A DNA stretch of 64,000 nucleotides. Origin: Bacteroidota bacterium. GTDB lineage: Bacteria > Bacteroidota > Ignavibacteria > Kryptoniales > JAKASW01. The notes beneath the pieces are model-generated. The model was not told the DNA's origin. It was given only the letters and a program-made list of their open reading frames with translations, and searched no databases. Where the stretch lies: the NCBI GenBank assembly GCA_021825585.1, contig JAKAGT010000021.1, forward strand, positions 1 to 64,000. The letters run 5' to 3'. Position numbers and translations under genes: made by a program. This document shows, piece after piece, positions 7,294-7,982 of the stretch. Every line of letters begins with the position of its first letter. Within the stretch, counting starts at the first letter, position 1.

Positions 7294-7982
7294 TCATGTC
7301 GTTTTGGTCCCCTTCGGTCGTACGATCGATTCAATCGGACTTCTAATCTGTCCGAGTTCCTTCTTGCTAACATGGGTATATATTTCAGTTGTCCGCACGC
7401 TGCTGTGGCCCAATAATTCTTGAATGAATTTAATATCCGTACCTTGCTCTAGCAAATGCGTCGCGAAACTGTGCCGCAGGGTATGAATGCTTACAGATTT
7501 CTTGATTCCGGCTCTCTCCGCAGCGTCGTCAAAGATTTTCTCTGCGCTCCTCTCCGACAAGTGCTTTCTGCCGTGTGCGCCCTCAATTAAGTACTCCTTG
7601 GGACGATATTCCCTGTAGTACTCACGTAGTTGCGCGAGAGCTGCCTTTGATAGCAGCGTATATCTGTCTTTCCTTCCTTTTCCTCCCTGGACTTGTATAG
7701 CTCTACATACAAAAATCTGATCGCGTTGAATGCCTGATTAATTGAACCGGCAGAGAAATGCTTCTCGTCAATCAGGTGAAGCAGGTATTTCCTGACATCT
7801 TCACCTCCCAACTCTCTCGGATGACGCGGTGCGAAATATCTGACGAAATCACGAAGCCAACTCCGGTATGACGTCAATGGTTTATGCGAGTAATTCCTCA
7901 GCTTCAGCTCCTGCCTCAGCACCTCGAACAGCCCCGGCGTCCGGCCCGGACCACCGCCTCCTTCCCGCAGAGTCGCCTTCAT
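7294..7982 (-). pseudogene. Broken tyrosine recombinase (Xer/integron-integrase-like)
   Basis: The N-terminal part (from the ATG at 7982) is a SAM-like core-binding domain: [54 protein letters not shown]. The catalytic C-terminus continues in another frame from about 7692: [36 protein letters not shown] and TTEIYTHVS, including the tyrosine nucleophile. About 100 residues between the two parts, including the first catalytic Arg (normally in a TGLRxSE-type motif), are missing, and the junction is out of frame. The product cannot be active. The C-terminal half lacks the extra helix insertion that marks canonical IntI, so it is closer to Xer-like recombinases common in Bacteroidota. It faces the same way as the cassettes. 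It may be the former integrase of the array or a chance neighbour. Confidence 0.85.

Follow-up and report, generated by a model that had tools for sequence, protein, structure and literature searches.

Which enzyme moves the gene cassettes of an integron-like array whose neighboring recombinase is both broken and Xer-like? We addressed this question for a 64,000-nucleotide stretch of a Bacteroidota genome (bases 1-64000 of contig C42, hereafter the window; 4.97-Mb draft genome, 88 contigs), in which the remnant of a tyrosine recombinase gene adjoins a tandem array of attC sites. This recombinase belongs to a widespread Bacteroidota family which, judging from sequence comparisons, appears to run integrons with neither the additional I2 helix of the integron integrase IntI nor the unpaired attC bases that go with it, two features regarded as what makes integrons possible. 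With a probability of about 0.8, this I2-less class is represented by two sister chromosomal integrons in the genome, one in the window and the other on contig C15.

The integrase gene of the window is inactivated by a deletion

A single tyrosine recombinase is encoded at 7294-7982 on the minus strand in two out-of-frame pieces. The N-terminal piece (7692-7982, minus strand), in which a start codon and a SAM-like core-binding domain precede the loss of the frame, matches positions 3-81 of NCBIfam TIGR02249 and is 72% identical to residues 1-98 of an integrase encoded on C15; the open reading frame of this half extends over 7587-7982, but its homologous part is confined to 7692-7982. The C-terminal piece (7297-7713, minus strand) contains the HxxR...Y half without an I2 insertion, matches positions 51-171 of PF00589 and is 73% identical to residues 167-301 of the C15 integrase. 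The initial annotation of this locus had described these two retained halves as well as the loss of the frame and of Arg I between them, and the alignment to the C15 gene agrees on each point. Its estimate of about 100 missing codons was too high: in the MAFFT alignment with the intact C15 gene, the remnant lacks one 214-bp block and a further 3 nt, that is, about 71 codons. The junction lies at approximately 7690-7715 on the minus strand, and both the frame and Arg I (GLRVGE) are gone with the 214-bp block. Because Arg I is missing, the enzyme cannot work: the deletion has killed the integrase of the window.

Given that the ends of the C15 and C42 genes are nearly identical, the deletion could also have been produced by chimeric assembly of the two paralogues or by gene conversion between them, in which case the real C42 integrase would be intact. 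The two contigs are 98% identical across 253 bp made up of the 3'-terminal ~190 bp of the gene and attI, and the final 89 bp of the 5' alignment (the start codon region and upstream sequence) are 100% identical, with a middle of 72-79% identity between these ends; the draft assembly also has array repeats at contig ends. However, the coding sequence to either side of the deletion is diverged and particular to C42, and the flanks and cassettes beyond the gene differ between C42 and C15. We consider an artifact or conversion product of this kind unlikely.

An intact paralogue lacks the I2 domain

A search of the genome for intact relatives, suggested by the initial annotation, identified one on C15. 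This protein, P0002 (C15:8723-9628, minus strand, 301 aa), is 72-73% identical to the remnant pieces and heads its own attC array. Residues 24-193 and 220-290 of P0002 align to residues 10-179 and 248-318 of VchIntIA (PDB 2A3V), respectively, and the I2 region comprises 26 residues in P0002 versus 68 in VchIntIA. In a MAFFT alignment with IntI1, the IntI encoded on contig C66 and two Bacteroidota IntIs, about 41 residues were absent from this region. The TIGR02249 profile scored 235.5 bits on P0002 against a cut-off of 265 and left profile positions 180-241 unmatched. P0002 thus lacks the IntI-specific additional domain that marks canonical integrons, and the earlier description of the remnant as Xer-like, with no such insertion, holds for its intact paralogue. 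P0002 scored above the NF040815 cut-off (225.8 versus 220) and did not reach the cut-offs of the XerC and XerD families (196.0 and 190.1 bits versus 335 and 330); the genome encodes a separate XerD and a XerC-like gene.

attC sites, cassette ends and attI are those of an integron

Downstream of the remnant, the window contains five attC sites, at 5293-5415, 4084-4199, 3465-3586, 1146-1280 and 163-279. All five, along with their cassettes, are on the minus strand, as is the integrase, confirming the co-orientation noted in the initial annotation. Five more attCs of the same type were found on C15, and a covariance model, R1, was built from these ten sites; the window sites score 97.4, 108.9, 112.8, 104.6 and 101.8 bits, respectively. 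As in canonical integrons, the attCs form hairpins with R'' of the form NNNNAAC and R' of the form GTTNNNN, and single-strand DNA folding of two of them yielded z-scores of -4.6 to -5.9 on either strand. The R1 search of the genome returned 40 sites (E ≤ 0.001), located mostly on C42, C15, C3, C29 and C22; from their layout, we infer that C42 and C15 carry the heads of arrays and C3 and C22 the tails, with C29 as an internal segment. For 65 further attCs sampled in other members of the genus, pairing held in 93.8% of base-pair cells, and the covariation score was 0.624, compared to 0.169 for shuffled and at most 0.131 for slid controls, in an alignment that was fitted to the R1 model and leans towards the structure. 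The window array is a genuine integron-type array.

Integrons are cut at G^TTRRRY, and therefore the outer bases of R'' are expected to be complementary to the R' that opens their own cassette and not to the adjacent R'. Among 64 informative consecutive cassettes of the genus, R'' perfectly matched its own start in 45 and the adjacent R' in 1, and the fit to the own start was better in 52 cassettes versus 7 (p = 7e-10); a permutation test of the cassette ends gave 3.53 observed versus 2.35 (sd 0.09). Across the phylum, where we read 40 loci with I2-less integrases and 20 with canonical ones, the own start was matched perfectly in 15 of 28 cassettes and the adjacent R' in none. The phylum-wide sign test, performed with a loose finder, was borderline (p = 0.054) because of false hits, and the evidence from cassette ends comes mainly from the genus test. 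These patterns suggest that the cassettes move as units with G^TTRRRY ends, as they do in canonical integrons.

As also expected of a canonical integron, attI lies beside the integrase gene. In the window, it consists of a palindrome, AAAAACG...CGTTTTT (7246-7264, minus strand), that is kept at the same place in relatives, followed by the core GTTATCT (7233-7239, minus strand), which starts the first cassette, is predicted from R'' and is located about 55 bp beyond the integrase stop codon. The attI sites of C15 and C42 are the same save for one base next to the core, and at the core the two contigs split into different first cassettes. In 5 of the 7 testable loci of the genus, the core predicted from the R'' of the first attC was present at stop+53 to +66, and in the genus a hairpin, for example AAAAACGAAATACGTTTTT, and then a brief spacer come before the core. 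In the phylum sample, 12 of 21 loci had an exact copy of the predicted core 0-237 nt past the stop (by our estimate, the chance of a match is ~0.02 per locus), and a palindrome often ended 5-14 nt ahead of the core.

I2-less integrases and their arrays are widespread in Bacteroidota

Of 13 genomes of the genus, 9 encode the I2-less integrase, 12 contain this attC type and only 2 have a canonical IntI; 7 of the 13 combine the I2-less integrase and arrays with no canonical IntI at E ≤ 1e-40. Wherever enough downstream sequence is available in the genus, co-oriented attCs adjoin the integrase, and the other loci run off the contig. An I2-less relative (E ≤ 1e-55) was detected in 103 of 395 sampled Bacteroidota genomes, and an IntI over the cut-off in 106. 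Strict attCs, which were present at 17 of the 40 I2-less loci read, followed the integrase downstream on its own strand in 40 of 45 cases; at canonical IntI loci, they lay upstream and on the other strand in 22 of 26 cases. The divergence of integrase and array typical of canonical integrons is not seen in the window. The arrangement in the window, which had been likened to a rare reversed orientation, is not only a rare reversal but the rule of the I2-less class across Bacteroidota. Two canonical IntIs, L029 13193-15260 (C66) and, probably, L239 (G135), share their strand with cassettes or attC-like sites, and hence reversal occurs in canonical integrons as well. One relative was found outside Bacteroidota, L066 from the Firmicutes metagenome-assembled genome HGW-Firmicutes-7 (61% identity over the C-terminal 120 residues), which represents either a transfer or a binning error.

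The array could instead be a cluster of attC sites lacking integron integrases (CALIN), in which a canonical IntI with I2 gathered ordinary cassettes, either formerly or acting in trans; the Xer-like neighbor would then be incidental. I2 has been described as necessary for capture (PMC7790495), and canonical IntIs are encoded in this genome, on C66 and C4, as well as in one other genome of the genus. However, both IntIs of this genome, recovered in a search that the initial annotation had also proposed, are broken, so that the intact canonical IntI at an array that would have spoken against that annotation was not found in the genome. The C66 IntI is truncated before its Tyr and is associated with an attC of another type than R1, and no R1-type attC was found on the fetched contig stretches around the C66 and C4 genes; both were rejected as the enzyme of the array. 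Nor was any R1-type attC detected within ~10 kb of the other tyrosine recombinases of the genome. Furthermore, canonical IntI is missing from the 7 genus genomes mentioned above and from several single-contig genomes of other families: G129, G353, G063, G070 and G145 carry an I2-less integrase and attCs with no canonical IntI, and the sole TIGR02249 match in G145 is the I2-less gene itself. Across families, the I2-less integrase, attI and the first cassette follow a fixed layout, and the attCs differ in their extrahelical base according to the kind of integrase (see below). A CALIN origin of the array is, in our view, improbable.

attC sites of the I2-less class lack the extrahelical base

The I2 domain docks extrahelical bases of attC (PMC7790495; PMC4792948). 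A bulged base in the L'' arm was the majority state at 10 of 10 canonical IntI loci and at 1 of 17 I2-less loci (Fisher p = 1.3e-6), the single I2-less locus, L225, being ambiguous by eye. Within the genus, the best pairing was bulge-free in 60 of 72 sites, and the same parser recovered the bulge in control attCs from a class 1 integron and from C66. Thus, the extrahelical base that characterizes the L stem of canonical attCs is absent from attCs of the I2-less class. Neither this absence nor the recurrence of the system across Bacteroidota had been seen in the initial annotation. The array at L225 (G260, 3555-8907), beside a deep-branching I2-less integrase, has a constant R' GTTGGGT and near-equal spacers and is perhaps of another attC type. 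The L'-R' spacer is ~3-4 nt longer than the R''-L'' spacer; this asymmetry was rejected as a distinguishing mark of the I2-less class, as it is shared by canonical attCs from this phylum.

Several points weigh against an I2-less integron class. No strict attC was found at 23 of the 40 I2-less loci, which could be due to contig ends, missed sites or other functions, and a sub-clade of eight (L198, L200, L209, L218, L219, L224, L227 and L229) has no convincing attC arrays and may serve another function. The comparison of the extrahelical base used a home-made stem parser, covered 27 loci and was set up once the pattern had already been noticed. Finally, I2 has been reported to be necessary for cassette capture by the known IntIs (PMC7790495).

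I2-less integrases are close relatives of IntI

In trees built without the I2 columns, the IntIs formed one clade (100%) that grouped with the I2-less integrases, apart from the Xer and other recombinases of the genome. In the first tree, IntI was nested inside the I2-less sequences with 95% support. However, the approximately unbiased (AU) test did not reject monophyly of the I2-less integrases (p = 0.55), and the long outgroup branches are a concern; paraphyly is thus not claimed. Among the sequences compared, the I2-less integrases are the closest relatives of IntI, which is compatible with either an ancestral grade or a sister clade.

We see even odds that the I2-less integrases with attC arrays descend from a pre-I2 stage of integron evolution. 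Hairpin attCs and cassette arrays would then predate both the I2 helix and the extrahelical base, which would have evolved jointly at a later point on the IntI stem. Conversely, these enzymes might be degenerate IntIs, a lineage that lost I2 and shifted to bulge-free attCs, and the AU result leaves room for a sister clade with such a loss. However, Xer outgroups also have no I2, and a loss therefore needs an extra step; moreover, several deep I2-less branches have attC arrays, and the first tree places IntI inside the I2-less sequences. We find a secondary loss of I2 rather doubtful.

A model of cassette movement without I2

In the I2-less layout, the integrase gene reads into the array, attI lies directly 3' of it, with the palindrome followed by the G^TTRRRY core, and the cassettes share one orientation, each ending in an attC predicted to fold, as a single strand, into a hairpin. 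By analogy with IntI, the I2-less enzyme would bind attI as a duplex and attC as a folded strand, would cut the folded attC at the G^TT of its R' box and link it to attI, with neither the I2 helix nor an extrahelical base, and the resulting junction would be resolved by replication. Since both I2 and the extrahelical base are absent, strand choice and the block to second-strand exchange would have to come from elsewhere. Both might be provided by the unequal R-L spacers, by the asymmetric loop or, in many relatives, by an N-terminal HARP-like domain.

Many I2-less relatives have an N-terminal extension with a HARP-like motif (L049 9224-10819; L046; most of A6 by alignment consensus). In L049, the Pfam HARP score is 21.1 bits, below the cut-off of 25 bits, and residues ~171-240 are predicted with good model confidence to form a mixed alpha/beta domain, which could bind structured DNA. 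A HARP-like domain as a general substitute for I2 was rejected, given the sub-cut-off score in one relative and the lack of the domain in the C15 enzyme.

The array had been proposed to be either frozen or moved by a Xer-like enzyme encoded elsewhere. The second option fits better, the C15 paralogue being intact: the C15 enzyme could serve the window array in trans. Because it shares attI and the attC family with the window, the array is probably not frozen.

Cassette contents and contig ends

The first cassette of the window carries two overlapping genes (6437-7216 and 5434-6486), and the following four carry one gene each. The product of the second (4194-5264) looks like a RelA/SpoT-type synthetase by eye; the others are at 3599-4042, 1293-3482 and 294-1097. 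The sixth cassette begins at 1-162 (minus strand), where it is cut by the contig end. This segment is near-identical to L031 1-162, that is, C42 and C15 open with the same sequence, so that both arrays run into one shared cassette that broke the assembly. Within the C15 array, a 464-aa transposase-like gene (by eye) is located at L031 999-2393.

Implications and comparison with known systems

The I2 helix has been described as necessary for cassette capture, unique among proteins and lacking any known intermediates (PMC7790495), and its origin has been framed as a 'chicken-egg paradox', the selection of I2 without attC sites and of attC sites without I2 (PMC4792948). Descent from a pre-I2 stage, if true, would answer this paradox, and the I2-less class may be a living stand-in for the missing step in integron evolution. 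Nemergut et al. kept only sequences with the additional domain (PMC2426708), Ghaly et al. treated this domain as a defining mark (PMC9668308), and complete integrons were scarce in the Bacteroidetes group according to IntegronFinder 2.0 (PMC9024848). Surveys requiring the domain (PMC2426708) would miss I2-less systems. Among open-access full texts, a body of literature that leaves out most subscription journals and all preprints, we found no account of I2-less integrases tied to attC arrays. If active, the class would widen the known range of cassette-carrying bacteria and offer a natural I2-free system for studying attC strand choice and junction resolution.

Among known systems, sedentary chromosomal integrons (TIGR02249; VchIntIA) resemble the I2-less class in having attI by the integrase gene, tandem cassettes, attCs with an R''/L''/L'/R' hairpin and the G^TTRRRY cut, deduced here from cassette ends. 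The I2-less class differs in having no I2, no extrahelical base in the L stem and an integrase that reads into the array; it would thus work like an integron and yet lack defining features of canonical ones. Reverse-orientation integrons of Spirochaetota such as Treponema (PMC9668308) resemble the class in the co-orientation of integrase and array, but their integrases are classed as IntI. XerC, XerD and XerA (NF040815, TIGR02224, TIGR02225; PDB 1A0P, 4A8E, 5HXY) share the domain layout without I2, but P0002 scores far under the XerC/XerD cut-offs, and the I2-less enzymes are located at attC arrays and group with IntI. The part of Smyshlyaev et al. (PMC8138268) that we draw upon describes an integron-like subgroup in which the insertion is not fully conserved, and the I2-less integrases may be members of it; that part calls the insertion essential for integron function and does not tie the insertion-less members to attC arrays. 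By an I2-based definition, the arrays described here would count as CALINs, as would the window array with its broken integrase copy; the class differs from CALINs in having at the head of its arrays attI and a dedicated, co-oriented I2-less integrase, which is intact on C15.
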